DNA of 64,000 nt from Haloferula helveola (lineage in GTDB: Bacteria; Verrucomicrobiota; Verrucomicrobiia; Verrucomicrobiales; Akkermansiaceae). The stretch's first letter is position 1; each line of letters opens with the position of its first letter. Below are positions 8,782 to 17,757 of the stretch, piece by piece. Where the stretch lies: the NCBI RefSeq assembly GCF_037076345.1, contig NZ_AP024702.1, positions 3,658,001 to 3,722,000 on the forward strand, in the 5' to 3' direction. The position numbers and the translations under genes are program-made. Under the pieces are notes generated by a model. The model was not told where the DNA came from. It did not search any database and was given only the letters and a program-made list of their open reading frames with translations.

Positions 8782-9858
8782 TCAGATCGGTCGGACGCGG
8801 CCTGGCTTCGGCCCAATGGTTCCCCCCTCGATGAATCTGGCCTTCGTCATGGTCTTTCTCAGGTCCTTCTGACCGCGTGCCAACCTTGATGCCCAATTGA
8901 CGACGCGACGGGCCACCGGGGTCCACTGATGGCTGATGTGGGAAATCTGCGGCTCCGACCAGTAGAAGGCATCCGCATTGTAATCCGTGCTGACCAGGGA
9001 AATATCACGCGGTGCGAGGATGCCCTTCTGGGCCAGATGGCGCTCCGTGGCGGTATACAGATAGCTTCCGTCGAGAATCAAAGCGGTTGGCGGCGTGTAG
9101 CGGAAGATGGAGTTCAGGCAGCGGAAAAAGTCCGCCTGTTCATTGCCCCAATCCGGGAAGTGGTAATCACTGGGTTGGATGCCGTTGCTTTCGAGGGCAT
9201 CGAGAAAAGCCCGCTCCATCGGCCCGGGGTGCGGTTTGCGCCGATCCTCCCGGGACAGAAGCATGATGCGGTTATGACCGAGTTCTGTCAGCCGCTCGAC
9301 GCAACGGGCGATCGCCTTGGTCTTGTCAGGGGACGCACCCGCTATCCTCAACGTGGAATAGCGGCCGCAAACCGCGAAGGTGTTCAGGTCCTGCTCAGAA
9401 AACCAGCGCAACACCTCGAGCGAACCACCACCAACGATCCAGTTGTCGGCGCCAGTCCGCTCCACCATCCTGGCCACCCTCTTGGGATCCATCCGCAACT
9501 CCTCGAGGGTCTTGTCCGCCAGGTCGACCCGGTGGCCTGCCAGTTGGAGCTGGTTCCAGAGTGTAGCCAGAAAGCTGCCGCCGATGTCCCCCCGATCGTA
9601 GGGCAACACATGCATCGCCAGCCCGGGTGCATCCAACTTGTGAACCTGCAGGATCCGTCGTCGACGCCCGGTCCCCTGTTTCTCCAGCGAGCCTTCCTGC
9701 TCCAAGATGAGCAAGGCGGCATCGATCGTGTTGCGACCCACTCCCAGCTCCCTCGCCAAGCGGTCACTTCCGGGCATGACATCTTTCCAGGTTCCTCGGG
9801 CGATTTCATCGCGCAGGTGCTGCGCGACCTGGTCGGAGGCTGTGAGCACCTGGAGCAT
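8782..9858 (-). CDS. Transcriptional repressor: GntR-type winged helix with LacI-type sensor domain
   Basis: A 358-aa regulator. The start at 9858 (MLQVLTASDQ) puts the winged helix at the N-terminus as in the family. Residues about 1-70 are GntR-type (VAQHLRDEIARGTW, RLARELGVGRNTIDAALL, QEGSLEKQGTG). From about 85 onward a periplasmic-binding-protein/LacI-like domain follows (GADNWIVGGG, CVERLTELGHNRIMLL, PPTALILDGSYL, ISLVSTDYN), the usual sugar-binding portion. The gene is divergent from the PEP-CTERM gene at 10013. The 155-bp gap contains a palindrome that recurs upstream of the third paralogue, so it probably autoregulates and controls the secreted-protein genes. A 34-codon remnant of a second copy lies at 15025-15126. 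Confidence 0.82.
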   Translation of the reverse strand: MLQVLTASDQVAQHLRDEIARGTWKDVMPGSDRLARELGVGRNTIDAALLILEQEGSLEKQGTGRRRRILQVHKLDAPGLAMHVLPYDRGDIGGSFLATLWNQLQLAGHRVDLADKTLEELRMDPKRVARMVERTGADNWIVGGGSLEVLRWFSEQDLNTFAVCGRYSTLRIAGASPDKTKAIARCVERLTELGHNRIMLLSREDRRKPHPGPMERAFLDALESNGIQPSDYHFPDWGNEQADFFRCLNSIFRYTPPTALILDGSYLYTATERHLAQKGILAPRDISLVSTDYNADAFYWSEPQISHISHQWTPVARRVVNWASRLARGQKDLRKTMTKARFIEGGTIGPKPGRVRPI

Positions 9859-9903
9859 GGCAATTCGACGTTTTGTTGATCCGCTTGCTACGTCCAGCAG
9901 AAA

Positions 9904-9933
9904 GCCAGAAAACCTCCTGAAAACAGTCGGGGT
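9904..9933. promoter_or_regulatory. Candidate operator between repressor and PEP-CTERM gene
   Basis: A 30-bp segment that is identical (30/30) to 15118-15147 upstream of the third paralogue. Its core at 9913-9930 is palindromic: CC-TC-CTG-AAAA-CAG-TC-GG. In both places a TTGAC element begins 18 nt further downstream (9952 and 15166), as expected of a -35 box. Conservation of both sequence and spacing suggests the binding site of the adjacent GntR/LacI-like repressor, though shared descent alone could explain part of it. Confidence 0.5.
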
Positions 9934-10012
9934 CCCCAGACTTGGAAACCCTTGACGCAGGTCAGGAGCCGTTCCCAAATTGCCCGCAGTTCAAGAAAAA
10001 GATCCATCTTGC

Positions 10013-10831
10013 ATGAAATCACAAATTCTCCCGATGTTCGCGAGCTTGGCACTTGCCACGAGTTTTGCTGGGGCTGCCACCATATTCTCGGATGACTTCA
10101 GCGGCGGCACGGGTGATCTGAACGGTACGACGCCGGATACAACGACCGGTGGTGCGACATGGGTAGCATCCAGCCTGTTTGATGCCAACGGCGATGCCAA
10201 CATCACCGATGCGGTGGGTGGCAGTAGCAGTGGCGGAACCGCCACACTGGCCTTCACGCCTATGGACGGCTTCGTCTACACTCTGGAAGTATCGTTCGGC
10301 AATGTCACCACGGCTCCGGATCCCGGCAGCACCGGTGATGAATCCTGGTTGGGGCTGGGCTTTGCAGCGGGACAGTCAACTGCAACGAGTAGTAATAATC
10401 GATTCATCAACGGAGATGTCATCGGCCTAGCCTGGACTTTCAATCGGGGGAGCGGCGCATCCGGAACCTTCGATAATCAAGCTTTTCTTGGCGACGCGAC
10501 GGCTGGATCGAATCCGGGTCTTGTCGATGGGGCAGGCTGGGGCCTGGGGACCTACGGCGGCAATCTGGACCTTCGCATCGTTTTGGACACGACAGCGGGT
10601 GCGGGAGCCTGGACCGCGACCTGGCTGGCCGATACAGGCTCGGGCTTCAGTGTGATCCGCGCAACTGAGACGCTTCTTGATGAGAACATCGACTCGGTGG
10701 GCATCGCCGCTTCAAGTGGGTTGGTTTCCGGCAATATCAACAGTTTCTCGCTGACCTCCGTGCCCGAGCCCTCGGCACTGGTTCTGGTCGGGTTGGCGGG
10801 GTTGGCGGTGGTGGCCCGCCGTCGGCGCTAG
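10013..10831 (+). CDS. PEP-CTERM sorted secreted beta-sandwich protein
   Basis: The 272-aa protein starts at ATG 10013 with a signal peptide (MKSQILPMFASLALATSFAG). A single concanavalin/LamG-like beta-sandwich follows (about 28-247: DGFVYTLEVSFGNVTT, WTATWLADTGSGFSVI). It ends with a classical PEP-CTERM signal: VPEPS, a hydrophobic helix (ALVLVGLAGLAVVA) and RRRR. Such tails are processed by exosortase and direct proteins to the envelope or extracellular matrix; no exosortase gene lies in the window. Residues 28-247 are encoded by DNA identical to the next gene. It is divergent from the repressor at 8782-9858 and is probably its target. Confidence 0.88.
   Translation: MKSQILPMFASLALATSFAGAATIFSDDFSGGTGDLNGTTPDTTTGGATWVASSLFDANGDANITDAVGGSSSGGTATLAFTPMDGFVYTLEVSFGNVTTAPDPGSTGDESWLGLGFAAGQSTATSSNNRFINGDVIGLAWTFNRGSGASGTFDNQAFLGDATAGSNPGLVDGAGWGLGTYGGNLDLRIVLDTTAGAGAWTATWLADTGSGFSVIRATETLLDENIDSVGIAASSGLVSGNINSFSLTSVPEPSALVLVGLAGLAVVARRRR
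10096..10755 (+). repeat. 660-bp identical block, copy 1
   Basis: Positions 10096-10755 match 11077-11736 base for base as far as I can read. The constant offset is 981 bp and there is no indel; the alternative-frame translations of both copies are also identical. The block begins just after the signal peptide and ends at the last strand of the beta-sandwich. Confidence 0.93.
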
Positions 10832-10978
10832 GTCACTTCCGAGCCCAATTGATGTTCCGGGTGATCGCATTTTCGATCGGGCACAGGGGTTCCTTGTGCG
10901 GTTCAGCGTTCAGTTGCGGGGGGCACCCGATTCGCGCAGATTTCCCGCCGTCATTTGACCTCTCTACTTGAAATCATC

Positions 10979-13900
10979 ATGTCCGTCCGCCGGCTGCTTC
11001 TTGGGTGCTCGCTTCTTTTTGCGTTCTTCGGCGCGGGCATTTCGTCCGCGCAGGTAACGACGGTGTTCTCCCACGCCTTCAGCGGCGGCACGGGTGATCT
11101 GAACGGTACGACGCCGGATACAACGACCGGTGGTGCGACATGGGTAGCATCCAGCCTGTTTGATGCCAACGGCGATGCCAACATCACCGATGCGGTGGGT
11201 GGCAGTAGCAGTGGCGGAACCGCCACACTGGCCTTCACGCCTATGGACGGCTTCGTCTACACTCTGGAAGTATCGTTCGGCAATGTCACCACGGCTCCGG
11301 ATCCCGGCAGCACCGGTGATGAATCCTGGTTGGGGCTGGGCTTTGCAGCGGGACAGTCAACTGCAACGAGTAGTAATAATCGATTCATCAACGGAGATGT
11401 CATCGGCCTAGCCTGGACTTTCAATCGGGGGAGCGGCGCATCCGGAACCTTCGATAATCAAGCTTTTCTTGGCGACGCGACGGCTGGATCGAATCCGGGT
11501 CTTGTCGATGGGGCAGGCTGGGGCCTGGGGACCTACGGCGGCAATCTGGACCTTCGCATCGTTTTGGACACGACAGCGGGTGCGGGAGCCTGGACCGCGA
11601 CCTGGCTGGCCGATACAGGCTCGGGCTTCAGTGTGATCCGCGCAACTGAGACGCTTCTTGATGAGAACATCGACTCGGTGGGCATCGCCGCTTCAAGTGG
11701 GTTGGTTTCCGGCAATATCAACAGTTTCTCGCTGACTCGCACGGGTGGCGCACTGGATACAACGAAACCGACCCTGTTGTCGACGAACCCGGCGGACGAT
11801 TCGCTCAACTTTCCAACGTCCCAGAACCTGGTGGCGGCCTTCGACGAACCGATTGCCCTTGGCGCCACCGGCACGGTCACCATCAAGAATCTCACCACCC
11901 CCTCCGACACGGTCATTTCCCTGCCCGGCCCCGATCCCGACGGAACCCTTTCGGTCGTCGGAGCAGAGCTGACCATTACCCCCGCGGCGGCTCTTGCCGC
12001 GGGAGAGGAATACTCAATCGAAATCAGCCCCTCCGCCATCGAGGACCTTTCTGGCAACACCTATGATGGACTCCTCACTTCCAGCGTTCCGAACTGGACT
12101 TTCGCCACCGGGTCCGCTTCCAGTGGCACACTTACCCCATACGCCCATGATGCCGGCACCCTTCACCTCTGGCATTTGGACGAGGTCGATCCGGGTCCAG
12201 CCACCCCCGCAGCGGGCGTGGTCGGCAGCTTCAGTCTGATGCCTTCTTCCGGTGCGGTTCTCGGTTCGACGGCCCATGCGGATTTCGGCACCGCCGGCGA
12301 TGCGAGTGCGGCTTCGGACGCAGGTTTCCAAGGATCGGTGATTCCGGTGACGGATGTCACCGGGCCGGATGGTGCCTTCACCTTCGAGGCCCTGATCAAC
12401 ATCTCGAACGTCACGGATCTCCAGCAGATCATCACTATGGAGAATGCCAGCAGTGACGCAGGGGACCGACCTTTCCAGTTCCGGATCAACAGCGGAGAGC
12501 TGCAGTTCATCAACGTCGCCGCCGGAGCTCAATCGGTCGCTGCGGCCATCCCGACCACGGGCGACCACGCCTTCGTCTCGGGCGAGTGGTTCCATGTTGC
12601 CGTGGCGTATGACGGCAATGCCGGCACGGCGGACAACATCAAGCTGTTCTGGACGCGCGTCGATCCCGTGCACACCGAGGCCAACGAGATCGCTTCGAGC
12701 AGCATGGCCTCGGATCTCGGTGGGGTGGCGACCTCCTTCGGCGTCGGTCAGGAGTACCGCAGCCCATCCGACAACCTCGAGGGTCGCATCGACGAGGTGC
12801 GCATCAGCAGCATCGCCCGCGCTGCCGAAGAGTTCCTGTTCCTGGCGCCGGACACCGATGGCGATGGCTTGGCGGATCCGTGGGAGGTTCTCCATTTTCG
12901 GGAGAGCCCGGGTGAAACGGAGGTGGTGATCCTCGCCAAGTTCGACGGCACCGACGACCCGGATGGAGACACCTTCGACAACGAGGCCGAGGAATCGGCC
13001 GGCACCGACCCGAACGACATCACCCACACGCCGCTGGATGCGGACCGGGACGGCTATCAGGACGCCTGGGAACTCGCCACCTTCGGCACGACCGCCTACG
13101 GCCCCACCGACGACCCCGACGGTGACGGTTTCACCACCGCCGAGGAACTCACTGCCGGGACCGATCCGGCCAACGGTCTCTCCAATCCGGAGGACACGGA
13201 CGCTGACGGACTCGACGACGCGCTCGAGGAATCGCTTTTCGGAGACCTCGGCCAGGGGCCGCTGGATGACTTCGATGGCGACGGGATCGGCAACCTCGCC
13301 GAGCTGAATGCCGGCACCGACCCCACCGATGCGATGGACTTTCCCCTAGTGTCCTTCATTCCCGTCACCGACGGCAATGAAAACACAGACGAGAACGGCT
13401 ATGCCGGCTCGGCGATCAACTCCATCGCCTTCGCCCAGAACAACCTCATAACGGTCGGCGACCAGCAGTTCATCAGCTACTACCGCCGACACGCGACCGA
13501 TCCGGGCCATCCCGACAACAACACGGTGGTGGTGGGACGCCGGACGCTTGGTCAATCCCAGTGGGAGATCTTCTCCACCGATTTCGTCTCGTTCAACATC
13601 AACGACACCCACAACGTCATCAGCTGCGCGATCGATGGCGACGGTTTTCTCCACATGGCTTGGGGTGTGCATGTCCACCCGCTGCTCTACGCCAGGAGCG
13701 ACGCCCCGGTGACGGGCACCGCTCCCATCAACATGACCAGCCTCGGCACTGCCGGGATGACCGGGCAAGAGGGCGGCATCACCTATCCGAAGTTCCAGAC
13801 GCTGCCGGATGGTGATGTCGTGTTCCTCTACCGCGAGGGTGGTTCGGGCAATGGTGACTGGTACCTGAATCGCTACGACATCGACACCGGCACCTGGGCG

Positions 13901-15007
13901 CCGACTCACGCCAACGGCAGCGGGACCCAGCAGCCGCTGATGCTCGGCCGGGGCGACTCACCGGACAATTGCTTCTATCCCGACCGCCTGACGCTAGGCC
14001 CCGACGGAATGCTCCACATGGCGGGTGTCTTCCGTTACAATGGCGACTCGCTCGCCGGGGAAGGCGGTTACCAGACCAACCACCGCTACGTCTATCTCCG
14101 CTCGCCCGATGGCGGGACGAGTTGGCAGCGCTCCGACGGCAGTGTCATCGAGCTGCCAGTGGTGGAGGCGGACTGGTTCCAGAGCCTGGGTGCGGCCCAT
14201 GTGCCGGAAATCGTCAAGGATCTCCCCGAGGGACACAGCATCATGAACGAGTCCGGCATGACCACCGACAGTGCCGGCCGTCCGATCATCGCCAACTGGT
14301 GGGCTGACGATGCCGCAACGGGCGACCACACCCGGCAATATCACATCTTCTTCCACGACGGTGCCGACTGGCATCAGCGCACCGTGTCCGCGCGGGACAT
14401 TGACAATCCGGCCACCAAGTATTCGGAGGGCCAGCTGGGTTCCAGCAAGATGGCCCGCCCGATCGTCCTCACCGATGCGGATGACCGCATCATCGTCCTT
14501 TACCACGACAACCGCTTCGATGGGATCACGGTGGTTTTTTCGCTGCCGTTGGCACAGGACCCCGACCGCCTGCACTGGACCCGCATGAACCTCACGAGTG
14601 AGATCCTCGGGGACTGGGAGCCCACCTACGATGAGGAGCGATGGAAGCGTGATGGCGTGCTGCAGATGCTTTACCAGAAGATGCCCGGCATGGGCGTGAG
14701 CTACGGCACCCAGAACAATTCGACACCCGTGTCGGTCCTGGAGTGGAACGCCCGCGCCTACTTCAACAGCCCGATCCGGTGGAGCATCGACAGGGACAGC
14801 GTGCCGGGCCAGGCGACGATTTCGGCGCGGACTCGGACCGGGTTCCGTTATGATCTGAGAACCAGCACCGATCTCGATTTCAGCAATCCGCCGGCGGTGA
14901 GTGTTCCAGGCGATGGCAGCTGGCTCGAGCTCGGCTCTTGGCCGACCAATGAAGCCAGGCGGTTCTGGCAACTGGAGCGGGTCGAGGCTCCGACCGACGA
15001 TCTGTAA
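10979..15007 (+). CDS. Large modular secreted protein: beta-sandwich, Big_5, LamG, Ca-binding repeats and C-terminal BNR_4 propeller (ulvan-lyase-like)
   Basis: A 1342-aa protein from ATG 10979 with its own signal peptide (RRLLLGCSLLFAFFGAGISSA). Order of parts: a beta-sandwich identical to the PEP-CTERM protein (about 34-253); an SbsA/Big_5 Ig-like domain (about 257-380, TLLSTNPADDSLNFPTSQN); a LamG domain (about 395-620, TFEALINISN, GRIDEVRISSIAR); four thrombospondin-3-like Asp-rich repeats (about 622-785, DTDGDGLADPWE); and a seven-bladed BNR_4-like propeller (about 790-1280: FISYYRRHATDPGHPDNN, DTHNVISCAIDGDGFLHMAW). The BNR_4 fold is shared with PL24/PL25 ulvan lyases, whose active sites use His residues in comparable segments, so lyase activity is possible but not shown. 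There is no PEP-CTERM tail. No copy of the candidate operator lies in the 147-bp upstream gap. Confidence 0.82.
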   Translation: MSVRRLLLGCSLLFAFFGAGISSAQVTTVFSHAFSGGTGDLNGTTPDTTTGGATWVASSLFDANGDANITDAVGGSSSGGTATLAFTPMDGFVYTLEVSFGNVTTAPDPGSTGDESWLGLGFAAGQSTATSSNNRFINGDVIGLAWTFNRGSGASGTFDNQAFLGDATAGSNPGLVDGAGWGLGTYGGNLDLRIVLDTTAGAGAWTATWLADTGSGFSVIRATETLLDENIDSVGIAASSGLVSGNINSFSLTRTGGALDTTKPTLLSTNPADDSLNFPTSQNLVAAFDEPIALGATGTVTIKNLTTPSDTVISLPGPDPDGTLSVVGAELTITPAAALAAGEEYSIEISPSAIEDLSGNTYDGLLTSSVPNWTFATGSASSGTLTPYAHDAGTLHLWHLDEVDPGPATPAAGVVGSFSLMPSSGAVLGSTAHADFGTAGDASAASDAGFQGSVIPVTDVTGPDGAFTFEALINISNVTDLQQIITMENASSDAGDRPFQFRINSGELQFINVAAGAQSVAAAIPTTGDHAFVSGEWFHVAVAYDGNAGTADNIKLFWTRVDPVHTEANEIASSSMASDLGGVATSFGVGQEYRSPSDNLEGRIDEVRISSIARAAEEFLFLAPDTDGDGLADPWEVLHFRESPGETEVVILAKFDGTDDPDGDTFDNEAEESAGTDPNDITHTPLDADRDGYQDAWELATFGTTAYGPTDDPDGDGFTTAEELTAGTDPANGLSNPEDTDADGLDDALEESLFGDLGQGPLDDFDGDGIGNLAELNAGTDPTDAMDFPLVSFIPVTDGNENTDENGYAGSAINSIAFAQNNLITVGDQQFISYYRRHATDPGHPDNNTVVVGRRTLGQSQWEIFSTDFVSFNINDTHNVISCAIDGDGFLHMAWGVHVHPLLYARSDAPVTGTAPINMTSLGTAGMTGQEGGITYPKFQTLPDGDVVFLYREGGSGNGDWYLNRYDIDTGTWAPTHANGSGTQQPLMLGRGDSPDNCFYPDRLTLGPDGMLHMAGVFRYNGDSLAGEGGYQTNHRYVYLRSPDGGTSWQRSDGSVIELPVVEADWFQSLGAAHVPEIVKDLPEGHSIMNESGMTTDSAGRPIIANWWADDAATGDHTRQYHIFFHDGADWHQRTVSARDIDNPATKYSEGQLGSSKMARPIVLTDADDRIIVLYHDNRFDGITVVFSLPLAQDPDRLHWTRMNLTSEILGDWEPTYDEERWKRDGVLQMLYQKMPGMGVSYGTQNNSTPVSVLEWNARAYFNSPIRWSIDRDSVPGQATISARTRTGFRYDLRTSTDLDFSNPPAVSVPGDGSWLELGSWPTNEARRFWQLERVEAPTDDL
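11077..11736 (+). repeat. 660-bp identical block, copy 2
   Basis: Second copy of the block at 10096-10755, here inside the 1342-aa modular gene between its signal peptide and its Big_5 domain. Both flanks differ from copy 1 from the first base outside the block: A10095 versus C11076, and C10756 versus T11737. Confidence 0.93.
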
Positions 15008-15024: not shown

Positions 15025-15126
15025 GTGACCCTTTCCAGATCCATCCGGAACTCCTCGAGGATCTTGTCCGCCAAGTCGACCCGGTGGCCTGCCGGTTGCA
15101 ACTGATCCCGGTGCGTCGCCAGAAAA
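15025..15126 (-). pseudogene. Remnant of a second copy of the GntR/LacI-like repressor gene
   Basis: Read on the minus strand this segment still encodes about 34 in-frame residues matching the intact repressor (QLQPAGHRVDLADK versus QLQLAGHRVDLADK, then LEEFRMD versus LEELRMD). It starts abruptly after the stop of the preceding gene. It is joined at GCCAGAAA to the operator block. In the intact locus GCCAGAAA occurs at 9566-9573 and 9904-9911, so a deletion of 338 bp between these short repeats would give this junction and removes the start and DNA-binding domain. Confidence 0.75.
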
Positions 15127-15147
15127 CCTCCTGAAAACAGTCGGGGT
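15118..15147. promoter_or_regulatory. Second copy of candidate operator, upstream of the third paralogue
   Basis: Identical over 30 bp to 9904-9933, with palindromic core CCTCCTGAAAACAGTCGG at 15127-15144. TTGAC at 15166-15170 keeps the same 18-nt distance. It stays intact although the repressor copy beside it is destroyed, consistent with control in trans by the intact repressor. Confidence 0.5.
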
Positions 15148-15222
15148 ATCCAGAGCCAAAATACTTTGACCCGAGCCAAACCCGCTAGTGCTGTAAACGG
15201 ACTTTACGAAGGGTTCTTCCGC

Positions 15223-17757
15223 ATGAAATCACAGACGCTCGCAATAATCGCCTGCTTGACTCTTGCCTCGAGCTTTGCCGGAGCCGACACCCTATTCTTG
15301 CATGATTTCACCGGGGATACGGGTGACTTGAATGGTACTGCCGTCGAGACCGGCACGGGCAGTTGGGTGGCCGCTTCCGGGTTCGATGCGAACGGCGACG
15401 TCAACGTCACGAATGCCGGAGCGGGAAGTGCCACGCTGGCCTTCACCCCCACCGACGGGTTCGTTTACACCCTCGAAGCGTCGTTCGGAAGCCTGACCAA
15501 CTCGCCGGCGTCCCAGGATTGGCTGGCCTTCGGCTTTGCCGAGGGGCAGAGCCCTGCCACCAGCACGAATTCGCGGTTCATCGTCGGTGATGTCGTCGGC
15601 AAGGCGTGGACGTTCCAGCGGGGCGCTGGCGCCACCGCGAACAACACCTCCTTCCTCGGTGACGGCAGCGCGGGCTCGAATCCGGGAATCGTCGATGGCG
15701 CCGCTTGGACCTCCGCGGCCACCACATTCGGTGGAAACCTTGCCCTACGCGTCGTGTTGGACACCACCGGCGGCGCCGGCAACTGGACGGCAACCTGGTT
15801 CGCCGACACCGGCTCGGGTTTCTTCCAGATTCGCGGCACCGCCGTCCTGCTTGATGAAACCATCGACTCGGTAGGCTTTGCCGCCTCGAACGGCCCGATT
15901 TCCGGTAATATCGAAAGCTTTTCCCTCGATCGCAGCAACGGGGGGCTGGACACAACGAAACCGACCCTGTTGTCAACCAACCCCGCCGACGATGCGGTCA
16001 ACGTTCCGACGTCCCAGAATCTGGTGGCGACCTTCGACGAACCCATTGCCCTTGGCGCGGCCGGCACGATCACTATCAGGAATCTCACCACTTTTGTCGA
16101 CACGGTCATTTCCCTCCCCGGCCCGGATCCCGACGGAACGCTCTCGGTCGATGGCGCGGAGCTGACCATCACCCCGGCGACGGCTCTCGCGACGGGAGAG
16201 GAATACTCGATCGAGATCAGCCCCTCCGCCATCGAGGACCTCTCCGGCAACGCCTACGACGGGCTCCTCACTTCCAGCGTTCCGAACTGGACCTTCACCA
16301 CCGACGACACCGCACCGATGGTGACTGGCATGAGCCCCATGGCGGACGCCACCGAGGTCACCATCGGCTCCGACCTGACCTTGGACTTCGACGAGGATGT
16401 CGAGGTCGGCACCGGCGATGTCACCATTCACCTCGCCAGTGACGACAGCGTGATCACCAGCATCGACGTGAACTCCGGCCTCGTGTCGGTCACCGAGGGG
16501 GGCGTGGTGATCAACCCGCCCGCCGACCTCGCCAACAGCACGACCTACTACGTCAACATCCCCGCCGGGGCCTTCACCGACCTCTCCGGAATCTCCTTTG
16601 CAGGGATCAGCGACACCGTCACCTGGCGGTTCACGACCGCTGCACTCGATCCGGATGTTCTCTTCGCCGATACTTTCAACCGACCCGACGGCTCCGACTT
16701 GAACGCCTCGGCTTCCGGCAAGTCCGGCAGCCTCGGGGCGTTGGACTGGCTCGAAACCGCCAGCAGCGCGAATGATCCTCGAATCCTGAACAACGAAATC
16801 CAGATCGGCGAAGCCGGTAGCGGCGGCGGCAATTGGGCATTGGCATACGTGGATCACAACTTTGTCGATTCCGTTATTACTGCCGCTCAGACTTTCACGG
16901 TCTCTGTTGACATCGTGAACGACGAGACCGGCGGATTCACTCGGAACGCGGGCATTGTCGTGGGCGGGTCTGAAACCGACTTCTCGGGTTGGACTGCTGG
17001 CACTCCTGGCGGCGCCGATTTCGGCATCGGATACGATGGATCAGGAACCGAAGAGTTCCGGATCTTCGAGAACGGTGTTGTGACAACGACCACCCCCCTC
17101 GCCTTTGCGAACCCCGACAGGCTGGAGGTTGTGTTCACGAACGTGACGGACTTTGACGCCGGCACCACAATCGACTACGAGGTGTTCAACAACGGGATCT
17201 CGGTGGCGTCGGGTGACTTCGTTTGGAGCGGCACGGACGAGAATTACATCGGTCTCTTCTCGAACTGGACCAACGACGGGGCTGAATTCGACAACTTCGA
17301 GGTGCGGGCCCCGGCCGGCACCTCCGACCCGTTCACCCTCTGGGCGGAATCCGGCACCTTGCCGGGCGCGGTCACCTTCGAGGGCGACCTCAACGAAGAT
17401 GGCGTTCAGGACGGCATCGCCTTCCTGCTCGGCGTGGGCAATCCCGATGACGACGCAAACAGCGCCCTGCCAACCGTCAGCGAGAACGGTGGTGGAGGAC
17501 TGCAGATGACCTTCGACTGCCTGGCGGTCGCCGACCGTGGCGGGGCGGAACTCAAGGTCGCTTACAGCAACACGCTGTCCGGATGGACCGCGACGACCGA
17601 CGTAGTGCCGGATGAGAACGGGACCGATACGGGTGGAGTCGTGAGCTACGTGGTCGACACGGTGACGGTGGATCCTCTCCACCGAGTCACCGCGACCGTC
17701 GATGCGTCAGTTGCTTCCGGAGGCAAACTCTTCGGTCGCCTCATTGCGACCCCGTGA
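15223..17757 (+). CDS. Secreted modular protein: beta-sandwich, two Big_5 domains, second beta-sandwich
   Basis: An 844-aa protein. ATG 15223 is chosen because it begins a signal peptide homologous to that of the PEP-CTERM gene (MKSQTLAIIACLTLASSFAG). The first domain (about 25-240) is a diverged paralogue of the 660-bp block product. Two SbsA/Big_5 Ig-like domains follow (about 243-360 and 363-478, TAPMVTGMSPMADATEVTIG). The first is very close to that of the preceding gene (PNWTFTTDD against PNWTFATGS). A second LamG-like sandwich spans about 480-700, and a C-terminal module with FEGDLNEDGVQDGIAFLLGV ends the chain. It lacks a PEP-CTERM tail. Operator-like DNA lies upstream. Function is probably adhesion or matrix; no catalytic site was seen. 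Confidence 0.8.
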   Translation: MKSQTLAIIACLTLASSFAGADTLFLHDFTGDTGDLNGTAVETGTGSWVAASGFDANGDVNVTNAGAGSATLAFTPTDGFVYTLEASFGSLTNSPASQDWLAFGFAEGQSPATSTNSRFIVGDVVGKAWTFQRGAGATANNTSFLGDGSAGSNPGIVDGAAWTSAATTFGGNLALRVVLDTTGGAGNWTATWFADTGSGFFQIRGTAVLLDETIDSVGFAASNGPISGNIESFSLDRSNGGLDTTKPTLLSTNPADDAVNVPTSQNLVATFDEPIALGAAGTITIRNLTTFVDTVISLPGPDPDGTLSVDGAELTITPATALATGEEYSIEISPSAIEDLSGNAYDGLLTSSVPNWTFTTDDTAPMVTGMSPMADATEVTIGSDLTLDFDEDVEVGTGDVTIHLASDDSVITSIDVNSGLVSVTEGGVVINPPADLANSTTYYVNIPAGAFTDLSGISFAGISDTVTWRFTTAALDPDVLFADTFNRPDGSDLNASASGKSGSLGALDWLETASSANDPRILNNEIQIGEAGSGGGNWALAYVDHNFVDSVITAAQTFTVSVDIVNDETGGFTRNAGIVVGGSETDFSGWTAGTPGGADFGIGYDGSGTEEFRIFENGVVTTTTPLAFANPDRLEVVFTNVTDFDAGTTIDYEVFNNGISVASGDFVWSGTDENYIGLFSNWTNDGAEFDNFEVRAPAGTSDPFTLWAESGTLPGAVTFEGDLNEDGVQDGIAFLLGVGNPDDDANSALPTVSENGGGGLQMTFDCLAVADRGGAELKVAYSNTLSGWTATTDVVPDENGTDTGGVVSYVVDTVTVDPLHRVTATVDASVASGGKLFGRLIATP

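Follow-up and report, generated by a model that had tools for sequence, protein, structure and literature searches.

Here we report on a window of 64,000 bp (the whole stretch of DNA that was analysed) from the genome of Haloferula helveola (contig NZ_AP024702.1, positions 3,658,001 to 3,722,000), in which two neighbouring genes for secreted proteins, g1 and g2, carry an identical tract of 660 bp. The gene g1 (10013..10831, + strand) encodes a secreted protein of 272 amino acids (aa) that consists of a signal peptide, the shared block and a PEP-CTERM tail (10757..10828, + strand); the tail was assigned with Pfam (E 1.3e-5; 25.5 bits, above the curated cut-off of 20.7) and is not common to g2. 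No other Pfam match was obtained for g1 at E ≤ 1, and the genome contains two exosortase matches over the cut-off. The gene g2 (10979..15007, + strand) encodes a secreted enzyme of 1342 aa, in which a signal peptide and the block precede Big_5, LamG_3, TSP3 repeats and a BNR_4 catalytic part (Pfam). The signal peptides of both genes, and with them the position of the left border of the tract in the mature protein, were read by eye.

The two copies of the tract, copy A in g1 (10096..10755, + strand) and copy B in g2 (11077..11736, + strand), lie at an offset of 981 bp and agree at 660 of 660 bases, as the original prediction had claimed. Zero differences in 660 sites set a 95% upper bound on divergence of 0.45% per site, and all 212 degenerate codons for the same residue are identical (212/212). 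The borders are sharp, identity dropping to background within about 12 bases on both sides. On the right, the tract ends with the last predicted strand of the domain, as had been proposed; the left border, originally placed directly behind the signal peptide, lies inside the mature protein, about 7 residues from its start and beyond the first short strand of the model (residues 5-7), and to its left g2 retains its own letters (VFSHAF vs IFSDDF). The genome consists of one contig of 5,677,198 bases, and a DNA search of all of it returned the two identical copies and a diverged third copy in the gene g3, and no others. A protein-level search added two further copies far off (C1:2366367-2367902), referred to below as the second own locus. 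The remaining repeat pairs listed in the window (E up to 1e-10) are 65-86% identical, and the pair with 100% is an outlier.

The third paralogue, g3 (15223..17757, + strand), has a g1-like signal peptide, a block copy (15307..15927, + strand) and two Big_5 stretches. Its block is about 66-70% identical to the tract, with a synonymous divergence (dS) of 2.29, which is near saturation, and is thus clearly diverged, as expected from the earlier reading. The claim that the parts downstream of the block are unrelated holds for g1 versus g2 and fails for g2 versus g3, whose Big_5 domains are 86-87% identical (g2 Big_5, 11756..12109, + strand; 86.7%, dS 0.43).

The block is predicted to form most of an L-type-lectin-like beta-sandwich. 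Among the Pfam matches of 16 domain members at E ≤ 10 there was no lectin family, and the block is without a Pfam family; a profile search of the PDB with the block returned one chain, at E 1.3, which is not a lectin. A structure model built from 7 sequences had a predicted local distance difference test score (pLDDT) of 69.6 and a predicted template modelling score (pTM) of 0.77, with several loops below a pLDDT of 50, chiefly residues 126-135 and 142-162. The model matched the carbohydrate recognition domain of ERGIC-53 (1gv9; Z 15.8, root-mean-square deviation 3.1, 187 residues) and the carbohydrate-binding module CBM2 of the phage J-1 Dit protein (5ly8; Z 15.3, root-mean-square deviation 3.2, 184 residues), and a Foldseek search with it returned a legume lectin (E 1.7e-6). 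It supersedes an earlier, weak model from 4 sequences (pLDDT 54.2), whose Foldseek matches were also lectins. The likeness to the L-type lectin or ConA-like fold (1gv9, 5ly8) lies in the predicted jelly-roll fold of the block; the difference is that the block is 10-12% identical and has no Pfam or PDB profile match. The domain also occurs on three IMG/VR contigs (L086:1615-3624, L087:641-3487, L088:1648-3642), at the C-terminus of proteins of 664-948 aa (31-32% identity) that matched no PHROG family; beside these carriers, it may be mentioned that the structural matches of the model include the phage Dit module.

Counting this genome, the domain is present in 9 of 57 genomes, in 8 of 18 genomes of the genus, and in at least 14 of 384 genomes drawn from the class, for which no more than 8 candidates per genome were scored. 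The catalytic part of g2 was matched in 13 of the 18 genus genomes, and the catalytic tree was calculated from 11 of 18 matched places, the seven weakest being left out. In this tree g2 belongs to a clade of six enzymes (support 100/100) together with those of G017 C174, G007 C45, G005 C72, G010 C137 and the second own locus, and in all six the domain is N-terminal. No domain match was obtained in the genomes that hold four of the outgroup enzymes (G006, G008, G009, G012), and in G010, the home of the fifth, the sole match is the one in C137. Three of the six loci (this one, that of G017 and the second own locus; tails of the latter two read by eye) have a domain-carrying PEP-CTERM gene in front of the enzyme gene. 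At the other three the domain search gave a single copy per contig, and no partner gene was found in the flanks that were read, which at G010 reached about 2 kb upstream: a loose tail pattern flagged five open reading frames (ORFs), none with a PEP motif and a hydrophobic stretch by eye. The enzyme therefore had the domain before the copying event, and g2 did not need to acquire it. The part of the original prediction in which the recipient gene gained its domain by grafting from a PEP-CTERM protein is not supported, since all six enzymes of the clade carry it at the same place, three of them without a partner gene found.

The relationships of the block conflict with those of the enzyme that carries it. 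G017, a genome of the same genus, has the same arrangement as this locus, and its enzyme is 83.8% identical to g2 in the catalytic part, 83.9% in the LamG_3/TSP3 part and 64.0% in the block. The three G017 copies of the block are 91.2, 87.4 and 87.2% identical to each other (91% for its g1-g2 pair) and about 60-64% identical to the copies of this genome. The catalytic tree places g2 as sister to the G017 enzyme (100/99), whereas in the domain tree the three G017 copies stand together (100/100), and a clade of g2 with the block of the G017 enzyme is rejected by the approximately unbiased (AU) test (p-AU 2e-6). That domain tree comprised 12 of 17 rows, leaving out g1, G007C31_930, G007C31_1307, G029_768 and G014_766. 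Holding five enzyme blocks as one clade, with the identical g1 row left free, was likewise rejected (p-AU 1.3e-7). Between this locus and G017, paralogous blocks within a genome are closer to each other than the corresponding blocks of the two genomes are, while the rest of the gene follows orthology, which is the pattern of concerted evolution.

Silent sites were compared as the share of identical codons among codons for the same degenerate residue (p values uncorrected for the number of tests). Between this genome (G000) and G017, the block had 58/118 identical codons versus 334/515 in the catalytic part (p 0.0022) and 194/267 in the mid part (p 1.4e-5). The three partnerless enzymes, compared among themselves as controls and hence not independent pairs, showed no such deficit of the block against the rest (86/139 vs 281/434, p 0.54; 129/169 vs 361/450, p 0.32; 82/136 vs 291/428, p 0.12). 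Mixed pairs gave p values of 0.0054 (G000-G005), 0.00044 (G000-G007), 0.00033 (G000, this locus versus its second own locus), 0.025 (G017-G005) and 0.0024 (G017-G007). Silent divergence of the block is thus in excess when the enzyme of this locus or that of G017 is compared, whereas for the second own locus the excess is not clear.

Sawyer-type runs tests were applied to the variable sites of three copies; the triplet of this locus is uninformative, g1 and g2 being the same. In G017 the run-sum was significant for C11 299-911 (p < 1e-4), g1-g2 (p 0.0023), C11 573-911 (p 0.0056) and g0-g2 (p 0.035), and non-significant for g0-g1 (p 0.12) and C11 299-573 (p 0.36); the control triplet of partnerless enzymes gave p 0.07, 0.23 and 0.26. 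In two G017 clusters, these results speak for conversion tracts. One of these clusters, C11 (L079:6932-12182), encodes a PEP-CTERM protein, a GDSL hydrolase and an FAD oxidoreductase in a row, all with one version of the domain, followed by a sulfatase; its copies are 74-81% alike internally and less than 50% to the other copies compared. In G017 C174, as in the second own pair, the right border coincides with the end of the domain; it is more gradual in G017 C11.

As to direction, the jump in silent divergence between g2 and g3, from dS 0.43 in Big_5 to 2.29 in the adjoining block, is accompanied by a difference in identical codons (block 59/135 vs adjacent Big_5 74/103, p 2.2e-5). The G + C content at third codon positions (GC3) of the block is 63.5% (139/219), which is below that of the catalytic part of g2 (503/618, p 2.3e-7), its mid part (264/331, p 3.3e-5) and the g3 block (162/207), and not different from that of the g1 signal peptide (16/28). 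Together with the identity of the copies, base composition and silent divergence suggest that copy B is the probable recipient and that transfer probably ran from g1 to g2. They favour g2 as recipient without settling the direction, and both copies may have had an outside source.

The best-supported mechanism, with a probability of about three in four, is a recent ectopic gene conversion between g1 and g2, the latest such event, that was confined to one domain and in which one existing copy was overwritten by the other. This agrees with the original prediction of a very recent conversion between neighbours, and the identity, the orthology conflict, the silent sites and the runs tests all argue for it. 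A PEP-CTERM surface protein and a secreted, putatively polysaccharide-active BNR_4 enzyme would have stood in tandem, each with one L-type-lectin-like domain related to that of the other; homologous recombination between these direct copies, which are offset by 981 bp, would then have overwritten one of them, most likely g1 into g2, and would have halted where homology ends, i.e. at the domain end on the right and just past the first strand on the left. Signal peptides, sorting tail and catalytic parts would stay different because they have no counterpart in the partner gene. The identity and its borders, the domain throughout the enzyme clade, the non-orthologous block in an orthologous enzyme (G000/G017) and the runs of agreement in the relative are the observations from which we infer the recombination route and its direction.

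Several observations weigh against this reading. The GC3 of the g2 Big_5 region (100/141) is no different from that of the block, and that of the g1 tail (22/25) lies above it. When the enzyme of the second own locus was paired with the control enzymes, the same-codon comparison of block and rest gave no significant difference (p 0.069 with G005, p 0.30 with G007), and the stricter maximum-run statistic was significant in only two of six G017 pairs (C11 299-911, p < 1e-4; g0-g2, p 0.037). Copies in the second own pair agree at 72% (dS 1.14) and need no conversion; they fit an old duplication, and the pair was dropped as further proof. Neighbouring domains are not homogenised in G007 C31 (43-53%) and G017 C44 (41%), and homogenisation thus does not occur in every cluster. 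The original prediction would have been refuted by relatives whose paired copies are as diverged as the third paralogue, and on this the answer is divided: the G017 pair is 91% alike, the second own pair, at 72%, is about as diverged as the third paralogue, and the neighbouring domains of the two clusters are at 41-53%. Finally, no clear DNA homology between G000 and G017 was found in the g1 tail, the intergenic stretch, the signal peptides and Big_5. The domain of g2 is older than the identity; the g1 region has no clear homology to that of G017 outside the block, and the g1 genes of the two genomes may therefore not be one ancestral gene.

That lack of homology in the g1 regions would also suit fresh local copying of the domain, in which the whole of g1, or the block with new flanks, was built beside the enzyme by partial duplication, independently per lineage and without overwriting; the single domain version in the unlike proteins of G017 C11 (PEP-CTERM, GDSL hydrolase, FAD oxidoreductase) points the same way. 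We consider it unlikely, however, as an undisturbed donor enzyme predicts orthologous blocks in G000 and G017, and the blocks were found to be non-orthologous (p 0.0022 and 1.4e-5). Partnerless enzymes, moreover, behave as orthology expects, and the left border lies inside the domain and not before it. A duplicated copy of the block, or a diverged copy overwritten by its neighbour, could in principle also have arisen during assembly or polishing, and the exact identity does span more than the length of a short read. Such an artefact is very improbable given that the genome is a single 5.68-Mb contig, that each copy is part of an intact frame and is flanked by different sequence on either side, and that a comparable g1-g2 pair exists in G017 (91% identical).

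The base composition bears on a further explanation, namely import of both blocks together, or of the g1 block by horizontal transfer with later copying to g2. The GC3 of 63.5% stands against about 80% in the catalytic and mid parts of g2, 78% in the g3 block and 80% in another long ORF of the window. Relative to g3, the dS of the block is far above that of Big_5 on its right, and the pieces to its left are also less diverged (regulator remnants 86-95%, signal-peptide region about 76%). No closer donor was found among the 26 copies compared, though, the best relatives outside the identical pair being the g3 and G017 copies, and g1-type genes may commonly begin with a low GC3 (57 and 61% in the signal peptides of g1 and g3, 28 codons each). 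Import appears improbable.

Divergent from g1 lies a gene for a regulator with a GntR-type DNA-binding domain and a Peripla_BP_3 domain (8782..9978, - strand; Pfam). A regulator-like remnant (15038..15154, no strand assigned) that resembles 9486-9573 (86%) and 9904-9940 (95%) is located directly upstream of g3, and because of this position the front part of g3 probably stems from an earlier duplication of the region with the regulator and g1. The Big_5 domain of g2 (11756-12109) is nearly the same as that of g3 and unlike its positional counterpart in the G017 enzyme (L026), and judging from these similarities it seems to have been exchanged too. Elsewhere in the window, repeat pairs are found at 51228-51582/51933-52287 (81% identical), 45448-45788/45550-45869 (80%) and 25601-25944/26219-26562 (67%). 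Two PEP-CTERM-like genes with a more distant version of the domain were seen in G166 C129 (L080:6525-8670); there nearly the whole gene is duplicated (89% over 988 bases), which is not a domain event.

As read here, the locus is a clear-cut instance of gene conversion restricted to one domain in secreted proteins of bacteria; relatives for which the search gave no partner gene supply the controls. The lectin-like domains of g1 and g2 may recognise a common glycan; an anchored surface protein and a secreted enzyme would then be drawn to it together, and conversion would serve to keep the two domains matched. More tentatively, and with the odds against it, each locus might keep a private lectin-like 'address' domain, matched by conversion between the anchored PEP-CTERM protein and the adjacent secreted enzymes, which would bind the same glycan or each other and shift their specificity jointly. 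Should homogenisation be under selection, the domain could act as a targeting module specific to its locus, with which several polysaccharide-active enzymes are re-addressed at once; it is equally possible that homogenisation is neutral and simply follows from the presence of two direct copies at a distance of about 1 kb.

In the literature searched, no paper joined PEP-CTERM with gene conversion, no bacterial paper joined gene conversion, carbohydrate-binding module and domain shuffling, and nothing nearer than the papers named below was listed. In that literature, neither the lectin-like domain nor its occurrence in both a surface protein and the enzymes encoded beside it appears to have been described; domain-limited gene conversion is of a known kind. 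The catalytic part of g2 is like that of other BNR_4 enzymes, matching 5muk (deposited as 'Neuraminidase'; E 3e-54), 4irt (E 4.9e-54) and the L-rhamnose-alpha-1,4-D-glucuronate lyase 7esk (E 1.3e-25); it differs in that it scored 243.6 bits with the NCBIfam alpha-L-rhamnosidase model NF052497, below the curated cut-off of 700. The g1 tail is like that of PEP-CTERM proteins, whose PEP-CTERM regions are, according to PMC1569441, much more alike within than between species, from which paralogous expansion was inferred; that statement concerns the tail, whereas here the domain before the tail is common to an enzyme without one. Recurrent concerted evolution in prokaryotes, with paralogues within a genome closer than orthologues between genomes, is described for genes such as tuf in PMC6053082; here it affects one domain of otherwise unrelated proteins. 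A case of the same kind is that of mtrA-1 and mtrA-2 of methanogens, which, according to PMC4632066, are genes of the same operon with one common domain and an unlike fused remainder, of which only that domain is homogenised per lineage by gene conversion, as proposed for g1 and g2. The mtrA genes are part of a core membrane complex of archaea, where their history is very long and spans many species (PMC4632066), whereas the present case concerns a secreted lectin-like domain that was seen in few genomes, in which a single recent event is exact and other clusters are not homogenised.

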